From NCBI GenBank assembly GCA_025449115.1, contig JAHLKC010000005.1, positions 372,001 through 436,000 on the forward strand: a stretch of DNA of 64,000 nucleotides, read 5' to 3'. Each line of letters starts with the position of its first letter. Positions within the stretch are counted from its first letter, which is position 1. Below are positions 7,366-47,363 of the stretch, in pieces. Under the pieces are notes generated by a model, which did not search any database, had not been told where the DNA came from, and saw only the letters and a program-made list of their open reading frames with translations. A program made the position numbers and the translations under genes. The stretch comes from Chytridium lagenaria. Its lineage: Eukaryota > Chytridiomycota > Chytridiomycetes > Chytridiales > Chytridiaceae.

Positions 7366-8025
7366 CTAAGCGATCTTCCATGCTTGTTTTTGATATTCTT
7401 CCGTACTCATATACATAAAGTCATTCTTCACATCTTCCAGCAATTGCGCTCTCCTCATCTGCTCTGACTCAACAAACTTCACGCTCTTCTTTCGCACGCA
7501 ATCCAGCTTTAAATGTTCTGTCGACGGCGACGTTCCCTCAGACCCCACAAAAGTTCCCACCGAAAGGTTCTGAGCGTGGTCAGGATAGGGCACTTGAAGG
7601 TAAACAGGGCGACGAAGGCCATTTTTGACGGCAGGTGATTGAACCGTAATATTGAAATTGGAGTCTTGAGTCAGTGTCAACGTGGTGCTCGATGGGCGTT
7701 GAGATCCCATCGCATGAATTGTAGATGAACGTCTAACGCCACCACCCGCGTTTTGGTTCATTAGGGAACTGGGGAAATCTTCCGTCTGCGAGTAAAGAAA
7801 GTCAAATGTTCCCAATGCAGATATATCATCCACTTCAATGGTGGCTGGTGGCACCATTGTTGCATTAACACCTTTGTCCAGAGTCACAGTGCCTTGATCT
7901 TTTTTTCCCGCGACGGCATCTTCCGACACTTTGCTACGGCGGCGGAACACATTCTTTAGATATAACGCGAGACGGTCCACAGGTGAAAGTGCCTTTGGTC
8001 TAAACTCATCCGTCATTAAATTCAA
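7366..8025 (-). CDS. Lineage-specific DFxYM-motif family protein, copy C1
   Basis: Intact 219-residue protein that I do not recognise from any described family. It shares three blocks with four other genes in this window. Residues 17-32 form a basic segment (DRLALYLKNVFRRRSK). An internal motif A, FDFLYSQTEDF, lies at residues 74-84. A C-terminal motif B, NDFMYMSTEEYQKQ, lies at about 200-213, nine residues before the natural end. The rest is Ser/Thr-rich and looks disordered. Start may be 8025 or the second Met at 8016, which matches the MTEKP/MAEKP starts of C5 and C3 better. There is no signal peptide, membrane segment or cysteine pattern. It is the only copy on the minus strand and the only one uninterrupted in frame. 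Function unknown; the two aromatic-Met-acidic motifs suggest a docking or binding peptide, which is inference. Confidence 0.8.
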   Translation of the reverse strand: MNLMTDEFRPKALSPVDRLALYLKNVFRRRSKVSEDAVAGKKDQGTVTLDKGVNATMVPPATIEVDDISALGTFDFLYSQTEDFPSSLMNQNAGGGVRRSSTIHAMGSQRPSSTTLTLTQDSNFNITVQSPAVKNGLRRPVYLQVPYPDHAQNLSVGTFVGSEGTSPSTEHLKLDCVRKKSVKFVESEQMRRAQLLEDVKNDFMYMSTEEYQKQAWKIA

Positions 8026-8593
8026 CTTGAGGTGAGGTAAAGAGGGATCGATTTGAGAAGCAAGTACAGTCTAGTGACCTTCATCCAATTTAAAAGCGTA
8101 TCAAAAGCTATGTACCAAACGCTACAAACTTATTGCAGGTATGATAGTGCTTTGTCGGGATGGTCAATCCCTGGTCCATTCTCTTTTTTTCATACTATAT
8201 CGGTAAAGACCAAGGGGCTTGTAAGATCGTGAAGGAGCATCCCAAACCCAAATCTATACCGAGGCAGTCTGTAAATCCATAGCTATTCGCTTGGAGAACA
8301 ATGCTCACCGGTAAAGCACACCTGCACCAGATAACCATAGCACTACTACCAGCCAGTCAATGCGGTAGGTGAGATATCTAAGCCATCGCAACGAAACGCC
8401 GCCTGTACGGACTCACGACGCCGGACACACCATCGCAACACGCACCAGAGATGTCCCCTTATATAATGAAAATTTTTGTTTGATTTGAATTTAAGCAAGC
8501 TCAACCCTCCTTCCCCTTCAACCATCACCCAAACCCTCACTCCAACTCTTACCATCACCTCTTAAGCCCATCCATCCCTACCACGCAACCACA
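8026..8593. promoter_or_regulatory. Divergent intergenic region C1 / ATG18
   Basis: Shared 5' region of copy C1 (minus) and ATG18 (plus), about 570 bases. The stretch just before the ATG18 start (about 8495-8590) is rich in C, CA and CCT, as often seen in fungal promoters. I found no specific binding site I would name. Confidence 0.4.
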
Positions 8594-10193
8594 ATGAATA
8601 TCGTAGGCTCAGGCCGTCATTCTTCTAGCAATGCCGAAGGTCTCCTTTTCGTCAACTTCAACCAAGATGCCTCCTGCATTTCAGTTGGTTCCCGCCTTGG
8701 ATACCGCATTTACAACGTCGACCCTTTTGGAAAATGCTACGGAAAACTAGATGGAGGCATTGGAGTCGTTGAGATGTTGTTTTGTACTTCACTTGTGGCG
8801 CTTGTGGGTGCTGGAGAACAGCCTGCGTTTTCGCCAAGGAGGCTGCAGATAACCAACACAAAGGTTCGTTCACATAAGGCCTGGACCTGTAGTTTCTATG
8901 TATTATGAAGTAGTACTTTATTTAGGTTTTTTCTATGAAATTGTTTACTTACAGAATTATAGCGCCAATCTACCATCTGCGAGTTAACCTTTGTCACCGC
9001 CATCCTCGCCGTTAAGCTGAACCGCAAGCGTCTCATCGTGGTTTTAGAAGAACACATCTACATTTACGACATCTCCAACATGAAGCTTCTTCACACCATC
9101 GACACAAGCCCGAACCCTAATGGTATTCTGTGTGTTTTGGAAACAATCTAATCTTTATGCAGCCATCGTCACTCTCTCCCCGTCATCCGAAAACTGCTTC
9201 CTTGCATACCCTCCGAATACTTCTGGCGCATCAGGAGAACTATTGCTGTTCGATGCTATCAATCTGCAGGCCGTGAATATTATTTCGGCTCATAAAAGTC
9301 CATTGAGTTTCGTCAGTTTTAGCTTTGATGGCACAATGGTCGCCACAGCCAGTGACAAGGTAAGCCTTAATTAATTATTTTCCATATATCTAATCACTTA
9401 CTAAAAGGGCACCGTCATTCGCGTCTTCTCCGTTCCGCAAGGCCAAAAGCTCTTCCAATTTAGAAGAGGAACCTACGCAGCCCGCATCTATTCTATCTCG
9501 TTTGATCTTTCAAACACGTACCTGGCTGTATCAAGTGATACTGATACTGTACATATTTATCGGCTTCAGAACGAGAAGGAGAAAGCGTCGGCGAATGGAT
9601 CTAGCATTGCAGATCGGAGGCCGTCGACGAGTAGTACTGGATCGACGGGTGAAAAGTCAAGACTTGCTAGTGTGTATGATACCCTGTAAGTATATTCTCA
9701 TGTTCAGTCATCTCTTTACATCATTTATGTGACGACTATACATGCATTGAAACTTACACTATGTTCATAGTCGTTCTCCCATCGCATCTGCAACTGCCGC
9801 CGTAGGCTCCTACCTTCTTCCCGACATGATCACTGAGATCTGGAACCCCAACGCGACTTTGCATTCGCCAAACTTCCTCCGAATCTTAAAGGCGTCCAAA
9901 ATATTTGTTCCCTGGGCGGTTCTTTCGGCGGTTCTTTCTCCACCTCCTCATCTGCAGCCATCACCACCCCCTCCCCCAATTTCGCACCCAACGGCGGGAT
10001 GTTTGCCCAGCAAGGAACGTCAAGCTCAACAGCACGGGCGGATTCGGTGATGGTTGTGACCGCTTCTGGAGTATTTTATCAGTTTGCTATTGATCATGCG
10101 GCTGGCGGGGAGTGTTTACTGCAGAAGGAGTTTTCGATTTTGGAGTTGGATGAGACAGAGGTTTCGGAGGCTATGAGGACGGATAGGAAGTGA
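8594..10193 (+). CDS. ATG18: Autophagy PROPPIN WD40 protein Atg18-like
   Basis: WD40 beta-propeller that binds PI3P and PI(3,5)P2 and works with Atg2 in autophagosome formation at membranes and the vacuole. The N-terminus reads [20 protein letters not shown]. The diagnostic FRRG phosphoinositide-binding loop lies at 9459-9470 in [18 protein letters not shown]. Exons are joined by short GT-AG introns, for example after ITNTK at about 8862, after SPNPN at about 9120, after TASDK at about 9360 and after VYDTL at about 9687. In the sixth-blade region the expected [15 protein letters not shown] is split between two frames at about 9846-9858, which implies one missing base. After that the frame runs to MRTDRK and a stop at about 10191. 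The long Ser/Thr-rich loop before the break is usual for the family. It sits inside the C1-C5 family region but is not part of that family. Confidence 0.9.
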
Positions 10194-11050
10194 TGATGTG
10201 GGTTAATTATTCTCTTTTGGGAGGGAAGTGTATTTCTTGATGGGATAGATGACCTTTTTTGACGGCCATTTTTATTTTTTGTTGTTATATGTTCCACCTC
10301 TTTTTCCTTTTTGGTTGAGGTTATATCTACCGTTTTATTTTTCTCCTGCATTACCACTTTTTTTTATTTCCCTTTACACCTCTATGGTATATTACCAAGT
10401 CATATGGGTAAATGCTTTGCTGCACCTCTTATTGCTTGCCATGACGTTGATTCCATAGAGGGTGTCTAGTTTGTTCTTTCTCTGTAATTGTTGCAAGTAT
10501 ATACATAAATAATACTATTAGGCTGATACCAAAGGGATGTTGTCCATCGCACCCATCCAAGTACGCATCGCTCCATCCAGTTAGCCATCCAACCATCTAA
10601 ACATTTCTTTAAATAAACTAACCTTCCATTCCATCGTTCAATGGTTTCGCAATCCATCCGATGCCAGTCACGCGGACCTTCATGGTGCATCTAGCTGTCA
10701 AGATCAAAAAAAACTTTACGACCAGGACGCTGGCTCACTGTCAGAATCGAGCTCAGCTGTTGGTGACGATACAGACGGTGAAGGTTAACACCTAATGACC
10801 TAATTTTATGAAGCAAGCTCCTCGGGATCGGTCCAATCTTCTTTTTGACTTCCATTATTATGCTCCTTACGATCGGTATCACGGAGCCAATCTTCTTCCC
10901 AGAGCATTGTTGCAACTTCCCACAATCTGCTCCTCAAAAAAGTCCGCGAAATGAACCAACATGGCCATGTTGAATAAACCCAGTGGAATACTGGAACCTT
11001 CCATAATAACCTCGTCATCTTGCATCTAGCTAAACATCATTCGAGACCAC
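10194..11050. other. Intergenic region
   Basis: About 860 bases between the ATG18 stop and family copy C2. It begins T-rich (10230-10460), then carries a run of imperfect CCATCCA-like words at about 10545-10640. I see no supportable gene; short minus-strand frames at 10466-11018 show no recognisable domain. Confidence 0.5.
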
Positions 11051-12105
11051 CATGGGGGATGGAAATCCAATAAACACACCTCTTGATCGCATCTTTTCAA
11101 AGGTGAAAGGAACATTCAGGAGGAAAAGTAAGCAGCTAGAGGTGCCACCGTCACCTACTGCAGTTTCCGCGCAAGCTGACTCCGAAGCAGCTGCACATGC
11201 ATACGCCTCTGCAGAAAAACTCTCTTAGCTGCTGCCACAACACTAGTACCCAGTCGCCAGTGAGAACATAGAGCAGCTTCGACCTATCGGAATCTGAGTC
11301 AGGACGCACGGATCAGAATCAACGAAGTTTGACTAAGGCTAGACCAAGCTCTGTCGTAGTCCAGGGCAATGCTTCAGATTATGAGAAATACGACTTCCTC
11401 TACATGCAATCGTCAGAATACCTTTCCTCATCACATGATGTCGCTAAGATGGAGTCGACCAAGGATATTTAGGCGCACGCTCACTGCGTCACCTCTAAAG
11501 TCGAAGGCTATGTTGAAGAGTCATAACAATACGGACATGCGTTCTTCAGCAAATATTCAACGCTTGGACGACTCGAAGCCACAACTATTTGACGACGCTG
11601 CTGAGCCATCAGCATCAGTCGCCAAGCTTCATCTCAAAAAAAACGGTACCAAAAGTCGGAGGTGTTCGACCATCGGAGTTGAACGTCTCCAAGATGGTTC
11701 CACCAACCGAAGCAGTCAATGCTCTTGTCAGAGATCAAGTGCACATCAACAGGAGGCATACGTCTTCCGGGGACTTTACCGTTAATGCCCAAAGTCGAGT
11801 CGAAGTGAAGCTAAGATCGAGCCACCTCACCCAAACGAGTGGCCCATCCAGCTCGGCTATTCACCAACCATCATCAACGCACCTTTTCGAAAAGCCAGGT
11901 CAAAGCACGGGGCATCTCAATGTCCAATATGATTTTGGAGCAGAGGGATAGATCACTTGGACGTTCCCCTTTCTCACACAACGGCATACCAGATGATGTG
12001 ATGAAAACGCTAAAGGATGATTTCTTGTACATGAGCTCGGAGGAGTATTTGAGAGGAAGCTCAGACAAAATAGGTCGAGCCACTTCTACAAAAGTTCATG
12101 TTTGA
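11051..12105 (+). CDS. DFxYM-motif family protein, copy C2 (frame-broken)
   Basis: Second member of the family. ATG at 11051 opens MGDGNPINTPLDRIFSKVKG followed by TFRRKSKQ, the same basic N-terminal block as C1. The reading then changes frame several times. Motif A, KYDFLYMQSSEYLSSSHDVA, lies around 11389-11448. The helix PPTEAVNAL lies at about 11700-11726, followed by SSGDF, as in C3. Motif B, LKDDFLYMSSEEYLRG, lies around 12010-12058. The order and spacing match C4 and C5. At least four frame changes are needed, one beside the A-run at 11636-11643, and there are stops at about 11226 and 11470. This is the most disrupted copy, so it is either a decaying gene or the copy hit hardest by consensus indels. 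Function unknown. Confidence 0.65.
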
Positions 12106-12660
12106 TCCCTTACGATAAATAAAATGCAAAATTAGCTTTTATTACCCATTTCCCCACCCAGCTGGTGTGGATTTAAAAGCAGCAGCTGATCCTAACGACG
12201 TTCTTTTCGGCTTCATTTGAACGTTGAGGTGGTTGCCATTTCCTAAAATGGTCAATGGACCGCCAACACTCGGCGCGTTTTACTGACTGCGGATCGAAAG
12301 CTTCCGTAGATCATGGCACTTCGGTCGATAAGCGTTTTCGGTTGGCGGGATGATCCTTTGTAAATTTGAAACGTATGGCCTCCTTCAATTTAGATCGCCA
12401 AAAAATTAACGCCTCATTGGATTTTACCGACCGCGGTCCTTGAACTGGAGAAAGACCCCAACAGGGTCCTTCAACGCATCGCACGCCCTCATGATTCCAG
12501 AAAATATGACTATCGTCAATTCCAAATGGCGGCAATAAAATGGATGTTATACGGAAAAGGTTGATTTTAGTAATAAGGAAAAGTTGGTATTTAAAGACTC
12601 CCCCCACGAATGAGAAGAGCATTCATGCTTGCAACTGCTTCCTTAATCCCTGAAGACATC
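12106..12660. other. Intergenic spacer C2 / C3
   Basis: About 550 bases between two tandem same-strand family copies. It presumably contains the C2 3' UTR and the C3 promoter. A minus-strand open frame here has no recognisable content. Confidence 0.45.
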
Positions 12661-13781
12661 ATGGCCGAAAAGCCAATCTCTGGAGGGACGTTTAATCGTC
12701 TTGTCATCAAAGTCAAGAAAGCATTTCGCAGACACTCAATATCCGGTGTGGAGCCAACGCATTGCCGCACATCGCCATCCTCAATCCTTTTTAAAAATAG
12801 CATCACCTTCGACGTTTCCCCCGTCTCCTGTACTCCCTCTTCAAGCGTCCCTCGTTCAGTAGGGCATTTGGATACGGAGAGGCACTTGGAATTCAGCGAT
12901 AATTTAGGCGACAACCATAGCCTAAACTGCAGTAACATATCTGACTCCACCCCTGCACAAACCAAGCCATGACAAAGCCTCGACCATCCCGCATCGGAGC
13001 ATCATCAGTGACCACAACTGGCTGCAACTCTCTTCACGTCACTCACGACCTTCTCTTTATTCGGACTCAGAACCCTCACGATATTAACTTTCTCGCACAC
13101 TCGAACATTCCAAAGTCAAGCAGCTTTATGCCTCGGCCTGCCAAAAGCAACGAGCTCTCACCTGAAATGATCAGATCTTCAAACTCCTTTGCGGCTGATG
13201 GTGGAGCGTCTGCCATTTCGAATTCCACGACGTTAATTCACGGTAATTTACACTCAAAACCCTCTGATGCCCGCCTAATCTCCAAGAAATTGCCTTTGAT
13301 GGATGCTGTCAACGCTCTAGCTGCCGAGAGAACCTGGAAGCTAGCCTCAAGCGGTGATTTCATCAGTTCCAGGATGCCATCTTTGACCGATAGCATCACC
13401 GAGAGGAGCACATTAGGCCCCAACGACCTGCAAAACTTGAAGACATCCCCACTTTCTCAATATGCAGCCATCAACATGCTAATAGACGAGAGAAGGCTAT
13501 TTGAGGCAGAAGACATCAATAACTCTAACGATTTGGCCAACAATTTTTCTGGTCAACGACCCCGAGTGGCTTCTGGAACTCCAGACCATGGATACCAGTT
13601 CGTTGCTCAGAGGCGGCTGGCGAAGTCGGCGGGTATCAAATTGCCGACCCCCTTGATCAATGTAGTCACCACGACACCTGATGAATTGGTGTCTTCATTA
13701 TGTGATGATTTTATGTTCATGAACACGGATGAGTTCAGACGTCAGAACTCATCTGCAATTCTAGCGAAGGGAGGTCCTTAG
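12661..13781 (+). CDS. DFxYM-motif family protein, copy C3
   Basis: Third family member. ATG at 12661 gives MAEKPISGGTFNRLVIKVKK then AFRRHS, aligned with the N-terminal blocks of C1, C2, C4 and C5; an upstream in-frame ATG at 12610 is less likely. The first segment stops at about 12972 and the second runs from about 12969 to 13781 in another frame, so one frame change or an unrecognised intron separates them. The second segment holds a possible degenerate motif A (HDLLFIRTQ, about 13047-13075), the helix LPLMDAVNAL (about 13290-13319) followed by ASSGDF, and motif B, LCDDFMFMNTDEFRRQ, at about 13699-13746. In motif B the usual Tyr residues are replaced by Phe, a conservative change. The C-terminus follows motif B within about 12 residues. 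Function unknown. Confidence 0.75.
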
Positions 13782-14621
13782 CCTTTTTTGTTTCTCCAAT
13801 GTCATTATAGAATGTCGTTACGCGTTGATTATCAACATTAGTAATATATTGTTGCCCGATACAAGGTTTTTTTGCGTTTTCTCATCAACTTGACTAGAGA
13901 ACACAGACGACGTCCTCCGTCGCCCTTACTCATCGAGTGACTGAAGGTAAATACTTCGCCATTACATTGCCAGAAGGATCTCAAACCACCACCTCGCGTG
14001 ACTACTGGAGGGTAAGATACGTAAATTAACAGGACAAAAAAAGGATCAACACGTCCGAACCCAAGCTGACCATATTGTAAGCTCTTGAATAGAGTTTTAG
14101 ACGGCAGCTGTGGCACCCTTCAAATAAGATCAACCCTCCAACCATGATACGAAGAAATGATATCAGATGATCGCCCTCAGATTTATGAAACTTCCCTATG
14201 AGAAATTCCCACTACAAATAATTTAACTTTTGTTGTAATAAGATGTATGCAAAGTAGTTACAATATTTCTTTAATCTTTGCGACATTGTGACAAAAATCT
14301 TGTAATTATTTTCGACAAAAATCAGATACGGGCTCGACAGAAGATGTAATAACCTTGCATATTGTAAACATGTTGTAATAAAATGTATGATTTCTGAGTT
14401 TTTAATGTTCATACTATCTAACAATTCTTTCATTCTACTTGTGAGTAATATGTATATTCGTTCTACTTTAAACCAGTATATAAAGTAAAGCAATGTTTTA
14501 TTTTAGACAAATTAACTGAAAGTCCCGACGAGTAATAACAACACATATAACACAATTTGAGAGAGAGAAAAGTAAAGTGACTAAAAGAAGGAAAAAAGGT
14601 ATAATAGTAAAACAGCGGTGA
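13782..14621. other. Spacer with possible left end of the transposon
   Basis: The first part is the C3 3' flank. From about 14211 (CACTACAAATAA) the base composition becomes strongly AT-rich. Short words recur: TTGTAATAA followed by G or A then ATGTATG at 14233 and 14371, and TTACAATATTTCT at about 14257, which is seen again near 21188 beyond the transposase. This resembles subterminal repeats of a CACTA-like element, but I could not prove a matching inverted end. Confidence 0.3.
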
Positions 14622-17218
14622 CTAATTGGGACGACGTCTTTTAGTACGTCTAGTAACGGTAGGCTCTGGTTCTTCAAAGGACGACGGATTAGACTTTCGA
14701 GATAGTTTAAGCATGGTCTTAGCAGCTTCTTCCTCCTCTTCCTCAGCAGCTTCTTCCTCGGTTGCTCCCTTCTCAGCTACTCTCTTCTCACCTGCTTCCC
14801 TTTCCACAACTCCCCTTGCCTGCTCTTTCTCTCTAGCTTTCTTTCCGACATTCGCCATGGCAGCCTTTTTTGGGGCGGATGTCTTTGCAGCAGTCTTAGC
14901 GGCGGATGCTTGGCGGCGGATGTCCTCGCGGCAGATGACTTTGCGGCGGTCTTTGCGGCCGGTGGCTTTTGCGGCGGATATTTTTGCGGCGGTCGTTGCG
15001 GCGGCTTTCTCTCCGGGGATTTTTTCTCTGGATTCAATGCGTCGTGATGAGGCTATCTCTTGAAACGAAAAGGGGGGGAGAATTAAAACCGTCATTATCG
15101 TCGTCGGGACTTTCACTGGCATCAGTATTCCTCGTCACGCAAGACTTGTAACAGATGTCGCAGACTGTGGACGAGACTTTGCTGCAGAGACCGATCTGAT
15201 TGATGAGGACAAACTGGCGTATAGGCTCTCTGTTGGACAGAAACCATATGCGGCTAATTAGTGTAGGTTTCAGCTAGGTAGGGCACTTACCTTCCTTTTC
15301 CCTAAAGATTTCATTACTTCATCCTCTAACATCTCATCTTCGCTCAGCTCTCCATCATCAGAACTTGCCTCGATTTGCTTCTTGCGCTTCGGAAATGCTC
15401 TTGCCTTTGGTTGCGTGGAGTTCACAATTGTCGTCATCGTCAGACTCACGATCGACACTCTCGTTTCTCTCATAACGCGCCTTTCTTGATTTCCGAATAA
15501 ATTGTGGTGAAGCATTGATGTCCGAACTGCAGTCCTAGCGCATTGAAAGGTAAGTCGAGATATAATCATTATAAACTTACTCTAAATGCAACAATTTCTC
15601 GTTCAATTGTATTTTGATCTGCAAACTTCTTTCGAGCCTTTGTCAATAATTACACTCAGTCAAGGTACAACGGATAATAGAACTTACATTTTTAGGTTCA
15701 TACTTGCAGCTGGATTAATTGACCTCATCTTTTTTGCGAAAGGTCTCGTTTCACGAGGAGGAACATTCATGATCTTATAAATTCATTTAGCGTGATTAAA
15801 TAGATGATTTTACCTCTTTTCGTCCCCTTCTTTCCCCCGTTACTTCGATGGTATTTTTGGCGGAGTAAATGCGTCCAGGGCCACCCATTGACTCCCCTGT
15901 CCAATATAGCTTGCTCTTGCATCGACAAGTTTCTTCGAACCTTATTATAATAAATTATCTGATCACGACAATTAACTCTTACCTGCTTGAAAGCGTTGTC
16001 CAGGACCGACTGTGGGAGATGACGGAAATTGAGCCCTTCCCTCCAAATCTTGTCAGCTGCCTTTTTAAATGCATCCTATAATCGTTATAAATTTAAGTAT
16101 AAAGGAAACATTCAACTTACGGATAAGGACTTTACATCGCAGCCACTAACTAATTGAGCTGTTCCATATTTGTTTAATTCCATATCAAACTCTGTAAGAT
16201 AATCCAGTACAACACTTGGCTTGGCGTAAATACTGGAATTGACTTTACAACGTTAACTAAATTTTAAAAACCATCATTTACCAGGTTGACGAACTCTAAC
16301 TATTTTTTCAATGCTGTCGAAAAAAAGTTGGGAGGCAGCTTAAGACTCCTAGAGTCTTCTCGCGGATTCTTCCTTCTTTCCACGACTCGAGATGCTAATT
16401 GCCTTCGTCCCACATTAGGTCCGTCACTGTCGTCATGCTGTGTTCCAGAATTTGAACCGTCGGTGTGAGTTGGCATATTAAATTCCTTTGTGCAGGAAGT
16501 TCCTCGTCACGATTTCGCTGGGAACCATAAGTGCGCAAGGATGGTTTGGGATACTTGTTGTTGCGAGCAGGCAGTTCATCCTCAAAACGAGATCTCTGGG
16601 TAGGTGCTTCTTCGTGATGTAGACGAGATCTCTGGGTAGGTGCTTCTTCGTGATGTAGACGTTGGGGACCGTAAGTGCGAGTGGATGCCTTGGGGCTCCA
16701 GTGGTTAACAGCAGTGGGCTCGTCTGCTGTACCGCGAGATCTGAGGCTCGTCGACTTGCATATGCGAAGGCTTAGAACCGTAAGTGCGGGTTGGTGGTGC
16801 TTTCGAATTTCTGTCATCATTATCCGACAGTTCATCGTCAAAGGCCAGCTGAGAAGATGCGTAAGGTGACACTCGAACAGGAGGTTTTTCGTAGTAACGA
16901 CGCTGCGAGCCGTTGTTGCGAGTTTGCGCCTTGGTGTTCCTGTGGTCATCGGTAGGCCGTTCTTCGTCGTCGTCCTGATCAAATAGGCAGGGTGGGACAT
17001 TTTGGTCCCTTGGAGCGGGTAATTCATTGGGGTAATGCGAGGGCTTGATCAGCAGCTCCTGATCATAATAGTGTGAAAGTGGATCAATAGCCGGCAGAAG
17101 TAATTGCTGTAATAGTAAGAAAGATGATGTTCAGTTAACTTACATCCTCAACAGGCACCTCTTGGCTGCTTATTTGTCCCCAATCATTGTCGTCGTCTTC
17201 TACTGCTCTGAAGCTCAT
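14622..17218 (-). CDS. Spliced basic, Lys/Ala-rich nuclear-type protein, unknown
   Basis: Unrecognised gene read from 17218 (MSFRAVEDDDNDWGQ) to a stop at 14622. GT-AG introns are visible at about 17108-17145, 16223-16275, 16074-16120 and several more down to about 15290. The N-terminal part is polar, with degenerate repeats of about 25-30 residues built on R-T-Y-G-S-Q-R, including a perfect 36-base duplication at 16587-16658. The middle, from about 16220 to 15540, is better behaved: SVVLDYLTEFDMELNKYGTA, then DKIWREGLNFRHLPQSVLDN, CRCKSKLYWTGESMGGPGRI and NVPPRETRPFAKKMRSINP. The tail (about 15060-14625) is rich in Lys, Ala and Glu, ending TRRTKRRRPN. One frame change occurs at about 16735. 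It lies directly downstream of, and on the same strand as, the transposase, so it may be a second gene of that element (a TnpA-like role) or a host gene. The function is unknown. Confidence 0.55.
16587..16658. repeat. 36-bp perfect tandem duplication
   Basis: Two adjacent copies of a 36-base unit beginning ACGAGATCTCTGGG lie inside the repeat-bearing exon of the minus-strand gene. The length is a multiple of three, so the duplication keeps the frame and duplicates 12 residues (HHEEAPTQRSR-type). Confidence 0.85.
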
Positions 17219-17325
17219 GCTAGACTCACGGTAAGCTGAAAAGGTTTGTTTTTTTTTACCTGACGTTGCGGCTTCGTAGCAAGGATCCCTTTGTGCGTAC
17301 CATGTTTCTCACGGATACAAAAATT

Positions 17326-20300
17326 TTATTGAGTAAAAGATCTTTCACGGTCTAATACATAATACCCCGTCTTCGATTCCCAAAAAGCGACTGAACGGTC
17401 AATACTGTGCGCATCATGGTAGGTGATGCCCCCGAAATTCTTGAAAAACGTGTTGTTGAACTTGTCCTTTTCAAGTCCATCGGGGGCCCACTTGATACAA
17501 GCCAGCGGTCGAGGTTCTTGACCTTCAACTTGAAGCAGCATATAATATAATACAACCCCATATTGCGTGGACTGAGTCCATACAACCTTCTTCGTTTTTG
17601 ATCTCTTATGCAAATCCTCCAGAGTAATTACCGCCACACCGGCATTTTTGCGTGTTCCTTTTTTCTTGCTGTGTTCGCTCCCAAAAATGCGTTCACCACC
17701 GACACTCATTCTTGAATACCCATTGACCTTGTATCCCAAGCCTTCGACGTATATGTCGTTGGCTTGCATGTAATTCTTTAATCTTTTTTTCTTAAACGGA
17801 ACGTCAGATAAATAAAACACAATCTTACTACATCTTGATTTGATAGGGCAACTTCAAAACGTGGATGCAAGAGTTTGACTTCCGATGCGTCATTACCCAT
17901 TTTTCTTCACGCATAAAAGGGGGTTGCTTTCGTCACATTTATTGTCGTGCTCTATACTCATATTAAATTAAAATAGCGTCTCCTAATTACCTTTAGAGTT
18001 ACAACAAAAAAAAAAAATCCGATTGATCTTAGCTGAGACCAAGAGAGAATGGCATTACTCAAATTTTGGTATGCATGCTTTTCGCGATTTGAGTAAGGGA
18101 ACTAGCATGCCGCAAAGTCTCTCCATCGGATACTGCCAGTAGGACCACATTGGCCCATCTCACGAATCACGTCCGAAATATGGAGTACATAGTGAAAGAC
18201 GGAAGTGCATGCGGGAAGGTTGACTTCTTTGTAACCGTAATAATTCCTTGATAAAGTTAAAAAGAATCAGATATTACTTACTTTTCGTAATAACTGTAAA
18301 ATTCATAACATCCTTTTTCTATCCACTCTAACGATTCCTCGTCAAAAGAAAGACAATTATGACAAAATTGAATAACATCGGCAAATCTTGACCAAGCCAG
18401 AAGATCTTTGTCGGGTAAAAAGGTTTTCATTAAAGGAACTGATATGAGAGTGCACCAGTTTTTCCATTCCTCTGACTTTAGACCACCTTTATCTTCAAAG
18501 ATGTTACTCGGGGGCCGTCCGAAACTGGTAGGAAGACAGTAAGCATTCCTTGAAATTACTGAAGTCATATTTTTTTTCTGCGCTTCGTCGAGTAGGGCCT
18601 CGCGGAGATTTGTCTTGTCTCCAAAAAACCGTCCATTCCAATGCAAAAACATCGCCTTTGAAACATTCGTAGATAAATGCATAAGGTCTAGAGCAAAGGA
18701 CCACGGCCACGAGATGGATTTCAACTTATAGAAAATAGAGATCTTCGTGATCCCTTTATGTAATGTTAATTTTAGTTGTGATAAGGAAAATATACTCCAA
18801 CCTGAATCCTTTGCTACTTTAGCTCTCTGTGTTTTATTTCGTGCCGCCAAAAGCTTGTCCCAGCTTGCACGAATATCACACGTTTTCTCTTCAACGACTC
18901 CAAAGTAAGTCTCATCGCGTCATACTGAAGCTTCCCCCTGCGCAGATTCTTGCTGGTTATCCTCGGTACAAGCGGGTAGTAGTAGGTTTTTTGCCGTGCG
19001 CTGTATTCACCTTCAATAGTGCAATAGCGACACCCAAACACTGCGTTGTGACCAGAAAAGCCCATACACATGGCGGCGGCAGGTTGATCTCCCGTAACTG
19101 CAAGGAGGTGACATCGTAAATTTAGTGATTCCGTTTTTTCACGATATTTTTTACACCATCTAAGGGGTTTTATTAATTGGGAAAAGTAGGTACAGATATA
19201 TATACCGTGAACAAATTCCGAGGTGCTAGAAATAACAATATCAATACCGTCTTGCAAATATTATTGTTAGTTTAATGTTAACTTTTTTTTGTAATAAATC
19301 TACCTTGCAATTTCAAGAGGTCATTTATCAACGGGACTAAAAAGCTGTTGAGGTTCATTGGCTTCCTCGGGAGGATCCGCACATAATAAGGTTTTTTTTT
19401 TAACCCGCTCCGTTGGTGGCAGATTCAAGTTGACCAAAACCAAAGGCCAAGCCTGCTCTTTCCTTTGTGAGCTATTTGAGAAAATATCGTCAGCACTAAA
19501 ACTTAGCAAAAAGATGAGCTGACTTAACAATTTAAATAGGGAATATCCATCTGTACTAAACAATAGTGCAACATCATTCGGGCGATCCTCCGTAAAAAGA
19601 CGTTTCGTCAAAAGATTTCTATAATGGGCACCGTCAAATATGTCACTGTACGTTCCCTCCTCTTGAACTTTATGAAAAGTTTCATTGTGTCTATAAATCA
19701 TTGCTTCCCGTTGACTCTGATTTTGAAGTTCCCTCGTCATCTGCGTTAAAATTGATATATAGTTGAAACTCGTTGACGCATCCCTTTATTAATTAATTAA
19801 AATTAGTACGTTAACATGCAAATTAGAAAGTACCGCTCCCTTCCACAATATAAGCAGGTTTTAATGCCATGGTAAACCCCCGTAAAAGCCATACAATAAC
19901 GGCTACAACTAGGTATTTTTATGGCAGTAATACCACTAGCTTTACCAAGTATGGCTCTCGTTTTGTAAATGCTCTCTGGTTTCGCTAACCCTTAAAAAGA
20001 GGGTTAATAAAAAAAAGGACCCGAAAATAATATTAATAATTACCCATTTGTTTTTGCAAGCACAAATAACCCCGATCAGATATGTTGTGCGTGAGTTTAG
20101 ACGCATATTTAGAAAATATGTGCTGATGACTAATCACGAATTCTTTTCGTCCTGCAAGAAGAGTGGCCTCTGCGTTGATGTTATCCACGGAAACTTCCTT
20201 AAAATCTTTATGCGCGTCTTCGTCGTCTGTTTCTTCCCCGTCCGTTTCTTCCTCGCTGTCCATTTCTTCGTCGTCCATTTCTTCCTCGTCCGTTTCTTCC

Positions 20301-20971
20301 TCGCTGTCCGTTTCTTCCTCGCTGTCCATTTCTTCGTCACTGTCCGTTTCGTCATCGCTGTAATCCGTCTCGACCCCCATTTGTCCATCTTTATCCGTCT
20401 CTACGTCGCCTAATTTGTTCTCCCCACCGCCGTGTGTCTTTTCATTGTGGTCGATTATCGTATCTTCAACAACTCCACCAGCCAAAACACTCGACGGAGA
20501 CGATAGGTAATCAGCATCATGGTGAAACTGCATAATCATCCGTTTTTCTGTAGCGTGATCGGTAAGATTGTTAATTATTCGGCCTATGATACATTCATAG
20601 TCATTACCGTGAGATGGTCCTTCTAGTCGGACCTCATCCTCTATGCTGTTGGGTTCTTCATAATCGTACTTTTCGGACAAAGCATGGTCGATATGATTGA
20701 TGTTGTGCAGTTGTTGATGCACTAGCTGAGCTGATCGACGGGGATGTGGTCGACTAGCTGAAGACGTTGCGGTCATCGAATATGATGGTTGTTGTGCTAG
20801 AATAAACGATTGGTGGCTATTCTTCATCTGAATCTTATCACCCATACCTAATAATCCTTTGCAGCTTTCTTTCTGGTGTCGTCTAAGCCCTTTAAGGTCG
20901 CATAACGACCTTCCACATCCACGGCATTCGACACGCCCGTTAACATATGTGACAAGGACATCGGCATCCAT
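17326..20971 (-). mobile_element. CACTA/Tnp2-like DNA transposon core (zinc finger plus transposase)
   Basis: Coding core of a class II element on the minus strand: a zinc-finger first exon (20971 to about 20045), then transposase exons down to 17326. Flanks on both sides (14210-14620 and 20985-21380) are unusually AT-rich and share short words. Candidate outer ends are CACTACAAATAA at 14211 and TTATTTAGTAG at about 21299-21309, whose complement CTACTAAATAA matches with one extra base. I found no convincing target-site duplication, so the full extent, perhaps about 7.1 kb, remains uncertain. The element splits the C3 and C4 members of the DFxYM family. Confidence 0.75.
17326..20971 (-). CDS. 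Tnp2-like transposase with N-terminal C2HC zinc finger
   Basis: Likely one spliced gene. Exon 1, from ATG 20971, encodes MDADVLVTYVNGRVECRGCG with a C-x2-C-x12-H-x5-C finger, then an acidic Asp/Glu/Thr tract (about 20200-20370). An intron starting near 20045 ends in AACGCAG at about 19741. Later exons give YSDIFDGAHYRNLL (about 19625-19665), ALLFSTDGYSLFK, WPLVLVNLNLPPTERVKKK (about 19390-19450), GHNAVFGCRYCTIEGEYSA (about 19000-19060), FALDLMHLSTNV (about 18670-18700) and finally VEGQEPRPLACIKW with SIDRSVAFWES near 17370-17530. The order DIFDG, STDG, INLNLPP, C-x2-C knuckle, then D-x-MH is typical of fungal Tnp2/Transposase_21-type enzymes of the CACTA superfamily. The reading is mostly open, so the element may be young or still active, which is inference. 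Confidence 0.75.
20200..20370 (-). repeat. Acidic codon repeat tract in the zinc-finger exon
   Basis: Imperfect tandem repeats of 15-18 bases (TCCGTTTCTTCCTCG-like on the plus strand) encode a D/E/T/M-rich low-complexity stretch. The period is a multiple of three, so the frame is kept. Such tracts are common in nuclear proteins and give no functional call by themselves. Confidence 0.7.
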
Positions 20972-21735
20972 GTTTGTCACAATTTTTCTAAAATTTCAAT
21001 ACAATATTTTTGCACTATTCGTAAAATATTCAGTGAATGTAGAAAGTCAATATTTTTCCATTATATTTACAATAAATTAGTCTTTCAAAATATTTCTACA
21101 ATTTTTTAAAGTTGCACATCCCCCCCAAAACTAAATTTACAATAAAATAAACAGAAATGTATCAGGTTAAAACATATGTTCTATAAATTTACAATATTTC
21201 TAAAAAGCACTTTTCATAGGGCTTACCGTAAAATCTTGAATCGTTTTATACTTTCGGTGTAATTTACCATTAAAAGAATTGTTATTATACAAATCGTTAT
21301 TTAGTAGTTAGTACCTCTCAACCTCATATAAACTGAAGGCCTATGTCTGACTGAAATTGTAATAAAAATTAAACATCGCGCTCGTCACCTACTTTCGCAG
21401 ACAAAAAGTAGCCATGATCAAGTCATACCTTGATATAGAAAGGCGCCGAATTGCCGCGGTCTTGGTCACCCCCAATGAAATCTCGTCATAGAGAATGTTC
21501 GAGCATCTCGTAGTATTAGGTGCGCCCCCGGGTTTGATGAGTGGAAAAAAGGTTGTAAGTGCAAAAATAGAATCCCAATCAGTTCTTGTAAGGAAACAAT
21601 ATTGTTTTTGGATATCTTTCCTCAGAATCTTGAGCGTAATAGTACCACACAGGTGGATTCTCAATACTTCTTTTTGGTAAACGCTCTCGACTCCTTTACA
21701 GCAGAACCAGGGGACCTTTTTTTTGGCCAAGAGCA
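20972..21735. other. AT-rich right flank of the transposon
   Basis: From 20985 to about 21380 the sequence is very AT-rich and repeats short words such as TTTACAATA, for example near 21065, 21137 and 21188. The same words occur on the far side near 14257. The remainder up to 21735 lies just upstream of copy C4 and probably contains its promoter. I do not support a gene here; a 115-codon minus-strand frame shows no known domain. Confidence 0.45.
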
Positions 21736-23161
21736 ATGATAATCAAAGACGGCGTTTCTCGAACCTCACATCTTGATCAGTTTTTTCGCAGGTGAAAAAT
21801 GCTTTTCGACGTAAAAGCAAAGACCCGCATTCCCTGGCTTCATCTCAAACCCCATCCGCCGTCATCCAAATCGATGGTTGCAGCTCACCATCCGAATCAA
21901 GCTCAACGTTTGCTCCAATTTCGAGGGAGAACACATTTGGACCGACATACGGAACATCGAAAGCCCTACACCCTGGAAGGAACGTAGACCACTCATCACT
22001 CGAGAAATCTACAGATTCCACGATAAAAGAAGGTGGTCCTCGCAGAAGACTGCAGGAACAAGTTTCTCGTGAAAGCTCTTCAGGTCGGGGAGCAGGCGGA
22101 TCATCTAGAGAATTCGTTCCACACTATAAACCTGAGCAAGACGTCTCTTCGGGTCCCTGGGTAGCCAATGATCAAGTGGAAGCATTGAAGTTGGACTTTT
22201 CGTACATGCAGTCGGAGGAGTACATAAGGTCTTCACACAATATTGCCAGAATGGAGAGTTCAGAGGCAATGGCCATGAGACATAATGGGCTAAAATCTCC
22301 CATATCCTCAGTCTTCGAGGACGGGTACGCGCCACAGTCCTCAACGGTAAGCAAGATCAACGCATCAGACTCGCAGAGAAGCGCCGCGTCAAAGCCGCGG
22401 CCGGCAAAGATGAGCCACGAGTCGATCCCACCCAACGGAGGCAATCTGATCCGTTCGGCAAAGTCGTACGTGATGGAAAGTCCGGAGCCGAGGACGAGCG
22501 GGATGACCAGATCTACGAGGTCATACGTAGTCGAGGAGATGAGAATATCCGAGACGCGAGCACTTGCGTCATCTGAAGAAGGACCTGCACTAAGCTTCAT
22601 AAGCCTTCGGAGGTGCAATTCCACACTCGGATGATCGCACCTATAGATGCCATGAGTGCTATCCTCGACAATAGTGGCTCCTTGGGATCCCGAAGCACTG
22701 TTCGCTTCTCCATGAGTGATGTCGACACCATGTCACGTTCAAAGAATATTGGCGACGTCCCCTGCGCGTCCAAGCAGACGAAGGAGACACCCTCGATAAT
22801 CAAGAACAGGCGGATAACCTGCGACAATTCAGACATCACTTCATTGAGGGAGCAATACCTTAAAGCTTCCGCCTTGTACTCATCATCCAAGGAAGACGTC
22901 CTCGCCAGTACACCGCATAATGAGTTCAAGCAGATGAGGGAGGTCGGCAATAGCAGCAATACGCCACCGTCACCGACTCCCGCGCAACGTTCCCATAGGA
23001 TGAGTGATACCGGAGGTATTCTCTCATTCAGAGAAAGACATAATCAGCCTCCTGCACCGGCCTCGCTTCAGGCTGATGTTCTTTCCATCGTTCGTGGCGA
23101 ATTCATGTACATGGAGACGGAGGAGTACAAGAAGAGTACCGACTCCTTTAGCAGAAGATGA
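21736..23161 (+). CDS. DFxYM-motif family protein, copy C4
   Basis: Fourth member and the longest. ATG at 21736 gives MIIKDGVSRTSHLDQFF. The frame then slips at the six-T run (21781-21786) into VKNAFRRKSKD. One extra T would give a continuous block matching the N-terminus of C2. Motif A, LKLDFSYMQSEEYIRSSHNI, lies at about 22185-22245, followed by an AMES-like run as in C2. A second frame change occurs at about 22615-22630, after which the helix IAPIDAMSAIL is found (22640-22670). Motif B, VRGEFMYMETEEYKKS, lies at 23090-23137, close to the stop at 23159-23161. Both break points keep homology on either side, so the intact gene is probably about 470 residues. Ser-rich linkers separate the motifs. 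Function unknown. Confidence 0.75.
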
Positions 23162-23615
23162 TCCATGGTATTGTTGAATTTGAGATGCCCGTTATGCTGG
23201 TTTTGCTGTGGGGTGCGGCTATCTAAATAATTCTTGTAATTCGTGAAAACTCCCCGGCCATTCACTGAGGGTCGAATAAAGCTGAAATCATGTTTGATCC
23301 GTATTCCGATCCGAGCCTTATAACATAGATTGTGATAGCGACTCATTGGCAAATGAATGGAAGCTCCGGATGGAACACCATGAATCGACTCACGTCCAAT
23401 TGTCCGAGGAACCAATCTTCAGACTGCCCAACCGCCTAATTTCTCGAACTAATCCCAAAGGCGCGATTTGTGCGAGAGCTAAATCTGGAAGCTAATCATA
23501 CCTGGTCCGTAGCATGTGAAGGATCATAGGGAAAGGTGATTTAGAGGGGGTTTGATTCCATGCATAGCTCATCAGTTAAGCTTTAATTCGCCGATACTCC
23601 AAAGCCTTTGATGAA
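23162..23615. other. Intergenic spacer C4 / C5
   Basis: About 450 bases between tandem copies C4 and C5 on the same strand. It contains no recognisable gene and presumably holds the C4 terminator and C5 promoter. Confidence 0.45.
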
Positions 23616-24611
23616 ATGACGGAGAAACCGTCAAAGTCACCATTTGCGCGATTTGTCACTAAACTAAAGAAGACGTTCCATGGTAAACCAACACATGACG
23701 GCGATGAGCCTACGACATCGCCAAAGACTGACGACAATGAAGCCGAAGAAATCCCGATTCTCAAAACATAGACTCTCACCCTAAGGCCTCTACTATCATG
23801 CTCTCTCACCACTTGAGTCAAACACCACAGAAATGCCTCGAAAGCATACTCGCAAAACCCACTCAGCGTCTTTTGCTCGAGACACTCTCCGTCGGAAGAC
23901 GCAAAGCCCGATCGGCATTCTGTAGGGGCAGCCTCAGAGTATTCAGACTATGTGAAATATGACTTTTATACATGCAATCGGATGAGTATTTAAAGCTCGT
24001 ACCTGGAGCAAAGGATCATCCAAGGCGACCATCTATTGCAGTCTCCGAGGATGGAATGACCATGACTAGACCCTACCGCAATCACCTTCTGGATTCACCA
24101 GCAGCCTCCAGCGCTATTATTCAGCTAAAGGAAAGCACGAGATCAAGATGTGGTAGCACGCACATGAATTCACGGCCCTCAGAACCAACACTCTTCCACA
24201 CAAAACAGTTCATCCCATGGAAGCCGTCAACATTCTCAAAGATGAGATCATTCGAGTTGGAGTGGCTCGCGATAACTCTGAGGAGTTACTCCAGCTGGGA
24301 TGCGTTGATCAGACTACATCAAGGACATTTACATCTGTCAGGCGTCCTTCTTTCACGACCGACAACAGCTCATCAAATTACCTGGCGACTAGCCATAACC
24401 ATCATCAAGTTCGACGACGTCATAGTGAGCTGCTGGACCCCAAAAAAATGAGAAGACCTGAGAGGGACAAGTCGAAGGCCCCTCTGTCGGAGCTTCACCT
24501 GTGCATACACCCCGAGGCAGCGTCCACGAGAATATCATGAAGGCGATGCAGGATGAGTTTACGTACATGAAAACGGCAGACTACAGGAAGAGTGTTGCCA
24601 GCATGGAATAA
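23616..24611 (+). CDS. DFxYM-motif family protein, copy C5 (frame-broken)
   Basis: Fifth member. ATG at 23616 gives MTEKPSKSPFARFVTKLKK then TFHGK, the most diverged N-terminal block, with HG in place of RR. The first frame ends at about 23770. Motif A is at about 23957-23995: the sequence reads YVKYDF, then after one missing base YMQSDEYLKL. Restoring a single T in the T-run at 23964-23967 would give the family consensus DFLYMQ. The helix MEAVNIL follows at about 24217-24237, and motif B, MQDEFTYMKTADYRKS, at about 24547-24594, in a third frame, with stop at 24609-24611. Motif B has a degenerate acidic pair (AD for EE). Several frame changes are required; whether the copy is functional cannot be decided from this sequence. 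Function unknown. Confidence 0.65.
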
Positions 24612-43516: not shown

Positions 43517-46500
43517 ATGGAGGCTCATCGCATCCGCCAAAAGTACTCTTGGCTCTACTCTTCAACTCCCCATCCGTATGGGAGGGTAGAGACTGGGAAG
43601 CTTCTCGGTAGAGGAACGTATGGCAGCGTTTACAAGGTGAGAACAAGAACCTTTGGGCTCAAGTTTACTTACTTGTGACGCTTTGAAAGGGACGGCTGCT
43701 GGATACAGGAGAGGAAGTTGCGATCAAGGTGGTCAGGTTAAGGGAAGCCACAATGCAGGACATACTTCTCGAGGTTGACATTCTTCGATCATGTCGACAT
43801 TCAAAAGTCACTGCTTTCAAGGGTCTCTTTTTGGATCAGCTGGAGTTGTGGGTAAGGGCTCCCCGTCAATTCTTGGTCGTTTTCCTAACTTTCTTTGCCA
43901 TCAGATCTGCATGGAGCTATGTGAATCAGGGACTCTCTTTGATATCTGCGGAGGTGCGAACGATTCAACTTCTTTTATGTATGCTGATGATGGTTTCTTC
44001 CTTGTGTGTTAGCTGTACGAAAGCCTTTGACAGAGGATCAGATTGCTTGCTTGTTACGAGAATCTCTCATTGTAAGAACCATGATCGACTTGCATACCAC
44101 ATCACACTAACGATCGCTTGCTTTCTATACAGGGTCTAGAATACCTGCATACATCATTATGTGTCATTCATCGTGACTTCAAGGCAGGAAACCTCCTTCT
44201 AACCGATGAAGGTGATCTGAAGATTGCAGATTTCGGGGTTTCAGCAAGATTGAAAGCACCTCTTGCGCGAACAAGAACATTTATCGGCACACCGTAAGAA
44301 CGCTCACGCGAGATTTCATTCTTTGTCCTGACTTTCCAATAGAAACTATATGGCCCCAGAAGTCATCCGCTGCGACCCCGACCTCGACAAAACCACCTTC
44401 CTCCCTTCCTACGACGTCAAAGCCGATATATGGGCGGTAGGCGTCACAGCCATCGAACTCGCAGAGGGTCGTCCACCCTTCTACGACCTTCATCCAACCG
44501 AGACTCTTCGTATTCTCCTCCACACTCCCCAAAAACTCGCCCTCGCACAACCGCAAGCATGGACACCAGATTTCGTGAATTTCATCCACACCTGTCTTGA
44601 AATCGATCCGGCAGGGAGACCATCGTGCGAGCGACTCTTAAAACACCCGTTTTTGGCCCGCGCGACAGACGATCAGAGAGTGAGGGAAGTCATTAGGCTT
44701 TTGGTGGAAGATGCGAATCGAGGGGGGAGCTCCCAACATATGGTAGTGAGTTCGGATGCAAGCGACGATGAACAGGCAGAGGAAGCGATCCAACATCAGC
44801 AGCAGGAAGGTTTTACCGATCAAGTCGTTCCCATAACCCCACAATTATCGATGCCGTCAACAGAGTTGTTAAACGATGCACCTCTTCTTCTTCCTCCAGT
44901 AGAAAATGTAGTAACTCCTCCAGTACCTCCGAAATCTCTTGACGGACCACCTTTTCAAATCCACCTGCTTATGATCGTCTTGATTCTGTACAGGTATTGA
45001 ATCCTGGACCACTCAAAATCAATACCCCTCAAAACGTGTTCATGGTATGCTCAGATTTAAAAACATTCTTTTGCCATTTCTATCCATGATGCAAGCATAC
45101 TAAATTGCCGCAGCCTACCTATGACGCGTTACCCGAAAGGATCTCACCAGAGAGAGATTTTTCTTCTATCAACATCACGCCAAAAGATCCTAGATTAAAC
45201 GTACTTCCCCTGCACACCCTCTCTCAATCACATCAAAATGGTTCGACGTCAGCCTCTCCCATCCCGTCAACCTCTCCTCCCTCCTCCAAGTCCATTCCAT
45301 CCCCAACACCTCTCTCTTCCCCGTTCTCACCGCCGACATCCTCGACACCTCCTATCTCCTCCTCGGCTCCCCTACTGGTCTTTACGTCGTCGATATCCGC
45401 CCCGCTGCTCCCCCATACCCCCTCTTCCCATCCTCCGCAACGTCCGTTTCACTCAACTCGAAATTATCCACAACCTCAACGTCATGATCGCAGTTTGCGG
45501 GCGCGTCAACCAAATCCGCCAATATGCCCTCCCAGCCATCCGGAAAGCCATCACCGCCGTACTTCGCGCCTTCACAACCGCAAGACCGGAAACGCATACC
45601 CCTCATTCGACGCGTCCCGTTTGGAAGCACCAACGACGATGACGATGATGATAATCTCGGAACAGCCTATGTGAAAATTCCGGATACACAGGATACCCGG
45701 TCGTTCATGGTTCGGCAAACCGAAACGTCGGCTCATATCGCGGCGGTGACAAAACGTCGTATTGTGTTGCTTCAATGGGCTATCGAACCTTACACTCGGT
45801 TCTTGAAACTCCGTGACATTGTTATTCCCGATCCTCCACTTCATGTTGACCTTCTTCATGATGGTGTGAATATTACTGACGTTGTGATCGTCACCGCGAA
45901 AGACGCGAATGTGATATCGGTTGGGAGCGATGAGGGGAAAAGGTTAAATCATGGAGCAGCTGGAACGCGGGTACGTGTTGATAAAAGATTCTCGGGAGAG
46001 GCTGGGGGCACGTGGAGGGGGTTCACTCAACTCCCTTTTTCTGAGGACCGACGAAGAGAGATTCGAGAGAGGGAGGTCGAGAGGTTTGTTGCTCGGAGTC
46101 CAAGTGGACGCAGTGTGAGACGAGAGAGATGGGCCTCCACCTCCCCGAATTGAAACAGGTGAACGCGTCTTTTTAGGAACGTTTGAACGAATGACGTTTA
46201 TGACCGATGTGTTTGGGAATATCGTTGATGGAGGGCGCGTGGGATATGACGCCTGACACGGTTTTGGTGTTGGGGAGAATGTATAGCTGTTGGGGAGGAA
46301 GGCGTGCAGATTGGAGAGATGCGAGGGGGAGGGTTTGCAGAGTTTAAAGGTTTCTAGAGGGGGGCGGGTGAGAGTGTTGGGGGGTAAAGATGGGGATGGG
46401 AGTGTAGTTGGTTGTGGAAGCGGGAGGGGATTCTGGGTTTGTGTATTAAAGTTACCGGAACGAGAAGGGTCCAGAAACAGAGGATTAGGGAGCCTATACC

Positions 46501-47363
46501 GGATTTGTTGGATTCACCGGATTCCGTTGACCCTCCTCGCTTCCCCAACCACAAGTTATGTCACCTGTCCTCTGAGTATGCACCATCGCCACGATATCTC
46601 AGACTTTCGCTCCACCATCACCATCATCCACACCTCACCCTTTCGTCCCGCCTCCGCCATCCACACCTCACCCTTTCGTCCCGCCTCCGCCATCCCACCC
46701 TCCACCCCCGTTACATACACCCCAACTCTCCATTCCACCTCCACCATCACCATCATCCACACCTCACCCTTTCGTCCCGCCTCCGCCATCCCACCCTCCA
46801 CCCCCGTTACATACACCCCAACTTCCATTCCACCTCCACCATCACCATCATCCACACCTCACCCTTTCGTCCCGCCTCCGCCATCCACCCTCCACCCCCG
46901 TTACATACACCCCAACTTTCCATTCCACCTCCACCATCTCATCCTCCACCACAGTCATTCAAACCTCAACTTTTCGTCCCCCTCCCCATCCCACCCTCCT
47001 CCAACATCACTCACACCTCAACTTTCCTTTCCACCTCTTCCATCCCATTCACCCACACCTCAACCTTCCGCACCGACCCATCCTCCGCCAACTCCAAGTC
47101 CCACCCCGAAACCAAAACACCCCGCCTACTTTGGCGCCGCCCGCCCCGCTCTAAAACCATCATCTTCTCCGCACCCGACCTCGCGTCAGCCATGGACCCC
47201 AATCATCATCACAACTCCAAACGAGCCACACTCAGCCCCACTGATCGCATCAAATCTTGTGGATACCCCACGTGACGAACGGTCGGAAACGTCTGATCCA
47301 GAGTTGTTGTCGCCTTTGAAACCGCCGAGACGGACTGTGTCGTTGCAGGAGATTGGGGAGTAG
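43517..47363 (+). CDS. Ste20/GCK-family protein kinase with CNH domain
   Basis: Germinal-centre-type Ser/Thr kinase. CNH-containing members act in MAPK, Rho or polarity signalling. ATG 43517 gives [12 protein letters not shown], then the P-loop [18 protein letters not shown] (Lys), an [15 protein letters not shown] hinge, [11 protein letters not shown] (catalytic loop; the usual Ile is Phe), DFGVSARL and GTP-NYMAPEV across an intron at about 44295-44341. [20 protein letters not shown] (about 44425-44485) and [13 protein letters not shown] end the kinase domain. A linker follows, then a CNH (citron homology) domain: [59 protein letters not shown] and [21 protein letters not shown] Pro-rich, minisatellite-encoded tail runs to 47363. 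Frame changes occur in the CNH part at about 45400, 45620 and 46140, so the tail's true frame is uncertain. Confidence 0.88.
46612..47040 (+). repeat. About 96-bp minisatellite in the kinase C-terminal tail
   Basis: Copies of a unit starting CCACCATCACCATCATCCAC begin at 46612, 46741 and 46838, with a partial 35-base internal duplication in the first and increasingly diverged copies to about 47040. One-base length differences between copies (CTCTCCATT, CTTCCATT, CTTTCCATT) shift the frame among His/Pro/Ser-rich readings. Two frames are open across much of it. Confidence 0.85.

Follow-up and report, generated by a model that had tools for sequence, protein, structure and literature searches.

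A cluster of five locally duplicated genes in Chytridium lagenaria encoding largely unstructured proteins, as predicted, with shared short motifs

The DNA analyzed here (the window) comprises 64,000 nucleotides, corresponding to bases 372001-436000 of the 530,921-bp contig JAHLKC010000005.1 of the Chytridium lagenaria assembly (41.9 Mb, 356 contigs), and harbors a cluster of five related genes, designated C1 to C5. An earlier note on this DNA had described them as a paralogous family, and all five were found again within a few bases of the positions given there. Translation of all frames revealed that C1 consists of one open frame and that C2 to C5 are split over frames. Two of the genes are represented by deposited hypothetical proteins of C. 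lagenaria, namely BC829DRAFT_380814 (C3) and BC829DRAFT_380819 (C4); both models bridge frame breaks, and the C4 model lacks the C-terminal motif described below. Another contig of the assembly, C211 (44,144 bp), runs colinear with positions 11,285-61,996 of the window, and its most plausible interpretation is the second haplotype of this region.

Four shared blocks were defined: N (basic helix), B1 (internal motif B), A, and B2 (C-terminal motif B). Hidden Markov models (HMMs) built with one family member left out were searched against all 1,983 peptides of 20 or more amino acids (aa) obtained by six-frame translation of the window. In the following list, E-values are those of the leave-one-out models (domain level for N and B, protein level for motif A), "pattern" refers to a degenerate DNA pattern for motif B, and AF2 denotes AlphaFold2 predictions.

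7366..8016, minus strand: C1, one open frame of 216 aa; no second copy found in the assembly
7930..7986, minus strand: predicted basic amphipathic helix of C1 with RRRS site (E 0.0044; AF2 helix at residues 12-28)
7765..7809, minus strand: internal motif-B-like stretch of C1, unproven (alignment; E 0.34, not significant)
7393..7422, minus strand: C-terminal motif B of C1 (E 1e-7; pattern matched exactly)
11052..12105, plus strand: C2, frame-broken here, in the order N block, internal B, A, C-terminal B; C211 begins within C2
11392..11421, plus strand: internal motif B of C2 (E 6e-9)
11697..11738, plus strand: motif A of C2 (E 0.02)
12019..12048, plus strand: C-terminal motif B of C2 (E 2e-8; pattern match)
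12661..13781, plus strand: C3, deposited as BC829DRAFT_380814 (E 1e-5 for the N block and 1e-4 for C-terminal B)
13047-13070: internal B-like stretch of C3, not significant
13290..13331, plus strand: motif A of C3 (E 1.6, not significant; weak AF2 helix there)
13707..13736, plus strand: C-terminal motif B of C3 (leave-one-out HMM and pattern match)
21736..23161, plus strand: C4, part of it deposited as BC829DRAFT_380819 (E 0.0013 for the N block, 0.0044 for internal B, and 6e-8 for C-terminal B)
22194..22223, plus strand: internal motif B of C4 (pattern matched exactly; E 0.0044)
22634..22669, plus strand: motif A of C4 (alignment; E 0.7)
23099..23128, plus strand: C-terminal motif B of C4 (E 6e-8; pattern match)
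23616..24611, plus strand: C5, frame-broken here (E 2e-5 for the N block and 7e-5 for C-terminal B)
24217..24237, plus strand: core of motif A of C5 (E 0.77)
24555..24584, plus strand: C-terminal motif B of C5 (pattern with one mismatch; E 7e-5)

The N block was recovered in all five proteins, with E-values from 3e-7 (C2) to 0.0044 (C1), the best non-family peptide reaching E 0.26. B2 was likewise recovered in all five (E 2e-8 to 1e-4; best non-family peptide E 2.2), so that both the basic N-terminus and the C-terminal motif B are indeed common to the whole family, as had been proposed. Moreover, motif B has an internal copy that had escaped the earlier description and that was recovered in C2 and C4. 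In C5, the internal copy is split in the window and reached E 0.046, an antisense chance match reaching 0.05; on C211, a 237-aa open piece spanning the middle of C5 contains it with an exact fit to the motif pattern. Internal motif B is accordingly regarded as supported in C2, C4, and C5, and was recognized only by eye in C1 and C3. Models based on C-terminal copies only matched the internal copy of C4 at 6e-5 to 4e-3 (all five models) and that of C2 at 1.4e-3 to 1.9e-3 (four of the five; 0.57 with C2 left out), indicating that the same motif is present twice, as B1 and as B2. Motif A, formerly ascribed to all five genes, is visible in C2 to C5 and is lacking in C1; since its leave-one-out E-values amount to 0.02 for C2 and 0.7-1.6 for C3 to C5, it is a weak motif that rests on position and alignment.

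BLASTP comparisons of the X-joined rows, performed with the low-complexity filter switched off, linked all ten pairs (best high-scoring segment pair (HSP) between E 1e-11 and 0.006), and several of the best HSPs between paralogs were the motifs themselves. Shared ancestry of all five members is thus apparent above chance, and the existence of the family can be regarded as practically certain. The statement that the motifs stay fixed was too strong, as they are enriched in identical residues (6-11 of 19 positions for N and 5-12 of 21 for B2, versus 21-29% overall) rather than invariant.

The sequences support an architecture composed of a short, basic, predicted amphipathic N-terminal helix, an RRxS site in four of the five proteins (following the helix in C1 to C4), and a long, little-conserved linker. 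They likewise support motif B as an acidic, aromatic, and probably helical element of the form [DE]FxYMx[ST]EEY or near, C-terminal in all five proteins and with an internal copy in three. The highest hydrophobic moment lies in the N block in each protein (0.51-0.65; means near 0.2), and the net charge of the N-terminal 40 residues ranges between +2 and +6. For C1, AF2 predicted the N-terminal helix with a mean predicted local distance difference test (pLDDT) score of 87 for residues 11-20 and 68 for residues 21-30, almost all of residues 31-181 at pLDDT <50, and helices within residues 179-215 at pLDDT 66-74. In the charge-hydropathy plot, C2, C4, and C5 fall on the disordered side. In our judgement, the earlier description as largely unstructured proteins with short shared motifs is appropriate.

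Our tentatively favored reading is that C1 to C5 represent a lineage-restricted, locally duplicated family of intracellular, mostly unstructured adaptors; the mechanism requiring the fewest assumptions would be membrane targeting by the basic helix, tuned by phosphorylation, with docking mediated by motif B. The basic amphipathic helix would sit on anionic membranes, and phosphorylation of RRxS would release it. Motif B, where doubled, would dock one shared partner, which the protein would carry to the membrane under kinase control. The architecture is partly supported by sequence; each functional step is one that we infer. An unstructured scaffold with a docking motif appears reasonably probable, and the membrane switch is doubtful. 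All five family proteins passed a rule for lipid-binding helices, compared with 5 of 105 other open reading frames (ORFs), the latter being 107 ORFs minus two family ORFs, still containing some family pieces and being mostly unverified frames.

Besides this composition of the control set, several observations weigh against the favored reading. C5 has no RRxS at the helix, such sites occurring only further along the protein, and the internal motif B was not significant in C1 (E 0.34) or C3 (no match) with the leave-one-out models. The AF2 model of C3 (mean pLDDT 44.6) has no N-terminal helix; weak helices were predicted over motif A and around B2. C1 and C3 fall on the ordered side in the charge-hydropathy plot. 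The two properties of the comparison frames given below, namely their selection and their Pfam matches, belong here as well. Furthermore, the basic block may instead serve in nuclear import.

The latter option would make the proteins nuclear regulators, with the basic N-terminus serving as nuclear signal and motif B as an acidic-aromatic activation-type motif gripping a coactivator, which we consider rather unlikely. Activation motifs are of acidic and aromatic make-up, and acidic transcription activation domains feature a short helical motif with such residues. Motif B resembles them in being short, rich in D/E and F/Y/M, and helical as predicted in C1, and the positive net charge of the N-terminal 40 residues in all five proteins would suit a nuclear signal. 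However, no DNA-binding domain was matched in the family pieces scanned against Pfam (C2 in part), and the strong amphipathicity of the basic block in all five proteins would be superfluous for a nuclear signal. The fixed F, M, EEY spacing of motif B is also not known to be typical of acidic activation domains.

Compared with this alternative, it is a little less likely that the genes are rapidly evolving offshoots of some known, more widespread family lying out of reach of sequence searches. In the whole genome, the DNA pattern for motif B yielded 12 matches with at most one mismatch (6 in the cluster, 5 on C211, and a chance-like one on contig C347), and the reversed control yielded none. 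Protein searches of the genome, for which C1, C3, and parts of both C4 and C5 served as queries (C2 was not among them, and only the best candidates were scored), recovered this locus and C211 only. Within the limits of these searches, the family appears to comprise five genes at one place, and the additional copies anticipated by the earlier note were found neither by DNA pattern nor by protein searches.

Searches of approximately 5.8 billion proteins, which reach divergent relatives poorly, yielded no proteins other than those encoded on this contig. With C1 as a single-sequence query, its own paralogs were missed, indicating poor sensitivity and leaving room for a wider family and for divergent orthologs in other chytrids; one protein search had a reach of ~119-378 aa, with 7,994 candidates scored. 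The fairest of the protein searches, based on a profile with masked linker (reach ~167-530 aa), however, found only proteins of this contig among 5,412 candidates. Pfam gave no match above cut-off for pieces of all five proteins (C2 in part) and the deposited models, the best sub-threshold match being Hemotin (E 0.22, for a C3 piece), and PDB searches by profile and by sequence gave no match below E 0.6 (UHRF1 chain at E 0.67 for the N block). These results agree with the initial impression that the proteins resemble no known family, and none of these searches placed the motifs in a known, widespread domain family. Prokaryote and viral contigs, seeded by motif B alone, yielded 10 and 15 pattern matches, respectively, none of which was confirmed. 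The PAM2, LIR, and ABBA motifs were considered as well and were rejected by eye. The portions of the literature accessible to the search contained nothing on point for the family or for the BC829DRAFT models.

The broken frames of C2 to C5 in this assembly raise the question of a decaying pseudogene array. Between the two haplotypes, the coding stretches of the family contain 30 gaps of 1-2 bases in 4,345 aligned bases, all of them frame-changing (6.9 per kb). In all other aligned sequence, 408 gaps, 372 of them frame-changing, were counted in 38,957 bases (9.5 per kb). The comparison set consisted of six further frames chosen for being open in the window, which biases their rates downward; a Pfam match exists only for the monooxygenase, the kinase, and the PPR frame. 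Together, these six frames have 6,210 aligned bases with 37 gaps, 36 of which change the frame (5.8 per kb; range 4.1-9.4). Within this set, the FAD monooxygenase frame has 14 frame-changing gaps out of 15 in 1,488 bases, and the other five frames have 4.1-6.0 per kb. C5 differs between the haplotypes by nine one-base gaps but only 0.10% mismatches, and the frame breaks fall at different places on the two haplotypes. Since frame-changing gaps are similarly dense in other open frames (5.8 versus 6.9 per kb), the breaks are read as assembly errors; the occurrence of short gaps everywhere, in excess of substitutions at C5, suggests uncorrected indels, presumably from long reads, rather than decay.

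Across positions 11285-61996, approximately nine short frame-changing length differences per kb separate the haplotypes, and deposited gene models of this genome may therefore often be distorted. Divergence in the same interval is patchy, with kilobase bins near 0% mismatches alternating with bins of 2-9%, which may reflect local loss of heterozygosity or gene conversion. Two stretches in high-mismatch bins (46287-47363 and 50001-51650) are locally repetitive and self-matching in several registers.

With respect to selection, the compared pieces of C3 showed 11 synonymous changes (247 sites) and 15 nonsynonymous ones (797 sites) between the haplotypes. The latter represent 15 of 26 changes versus 19.8 expected (one-sided p=0.027, a weak test), somewhat below neutrality. 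Two changes alter motif residues, namely A to V in N and F to Y in B2. These counts provide mild evidence for coding constraint in C3 and not for fixed motifs. C4 showed 2 synonymous and 0 nonsynonymous changes, and C5 none; the genes other than C3 have too few changes for a selection test. Up to and including B2, C2 has a single nonsynonymous change; the tail past the motif has six changed codons, one of which reads as a stop on C211. This tail and the frame breaks would fit decay, but C1 has an unbroken frame, the positions of the breaks differ between the haplotypes, other genes have similar rates of frame-changing gaps, and the substitutions in C3 point the other way. A pseudogene array is thus highly improbable, and the family is very probably coding and constrained.

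To a similarly small degree, the genes can be expected to encode secreted effector-type proteins of an alga-associated fungus. Local duplication, divergence, the failure to find the family elsewhere, and a Ser/Thr/Pro content of 23-30% would be in line with this explanation. However, a 19-residue hydropathy scan of all five proteins (no dedicated predictor was run) detected no signal-peptide-like or membrane-span stretch, the best values of 0.34-0.79 starting at residue 46 or later in each protein, and there are only 0-4 cysteines per protein.

Between C3 and C4, the window contains an insertion outside the family:

14194..21221, no strand assigned: DNA-transposon-like insertion of 7,028 bp, on this haplotype only; C211 has the empty site

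The insertion bears CCCTATGA and TCATAGGG at its ends, with 8-bp terminal inverted repeats (CCCTATGA) and a 3-bp target duplication (CTT), and its ORFs match tnp2 (PF02992) and DUF1258, both below the Pfam cut-offs. Because of the repeats, the duplication, and these matches, the insertion is probably CACTA-like. An ORF within it (20036-20995) combines a sub-cut-off C2H2 finger with a long Glu/Asp/Thr-rich repeat tract. On C211, the gap between C3 and C4 is ~0.9 kb in length. Proximity to a transposon had been taken as a pointer to the nature of the family; it proved incidental and uninformative, because C211 has C2 to C5 without the insertion. An origin of the genes in the neighboring transposon, suggested by its position between C3 and C4, is refuted for this insertion by the same observation, no family copy having been found elsewhere, and is practically excluded.

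As to the organism, strain Arg66 v1.0 of the chytrid C. lagenaria is listed in PMC9993110, and forms resembling C. lagenaria are mentioned on Oedogonium in PMC10470594. A radial-spoke match above its cut-off agrees with a flagellated fungus. A PROPPIN (ATG18-like) gene (8594-10193), encoded on the opposite strand, is a neighbor of C1, and that stretch was not recovered on any second contig.

Among known systems, MARCKS-type electrostatic-switch proteins combine an unstructured chain with a basic segment whose serine lies in a basophilic-kinase site. The family appears similar in its predicted unstructured chain and in its basic segment with a candidate basophilic-kinase serine (C1 to C4). In contrast to these proteins, its basic segment is N-terminal, it carries motif B, and it has no shared lipidation signal, as only C2 begins with MG, providing a candidate myristoylation glycine (C1 MT, C3 MA, C4 MI, C5 MT); no sequence relation was found. 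The family is best placed among taxon-restricted, locally duplicated orphan families, with which it shares local duplication, high divergence, and the lack of detected outside relatives, and from which no defining difference sets it apart. It is therefore ordinary in kind and new as a family, and nothing beyond a gene family marks it as the candidate "new system" once proposed.

In a more far-reaching version of the favored reading, which we regard as improbable, the proteins would be newly born chytrid signaling adaptors in which a docking peptide, present twice in three or more members, is membrane-borne under basophilic-kinase control, and the paralogs would tune one partner by life stage. 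The cluster offers a compact and clear example, from an early-diverging fungus, of an apparently lineage-restricted family whose mostly unstructured proteins are built around motifs, and it serves as a warning that assembly errors have been bridged in deposited models of this genome. Should motif B act as a docking peptide, it could be used directly to retrieve the partner.

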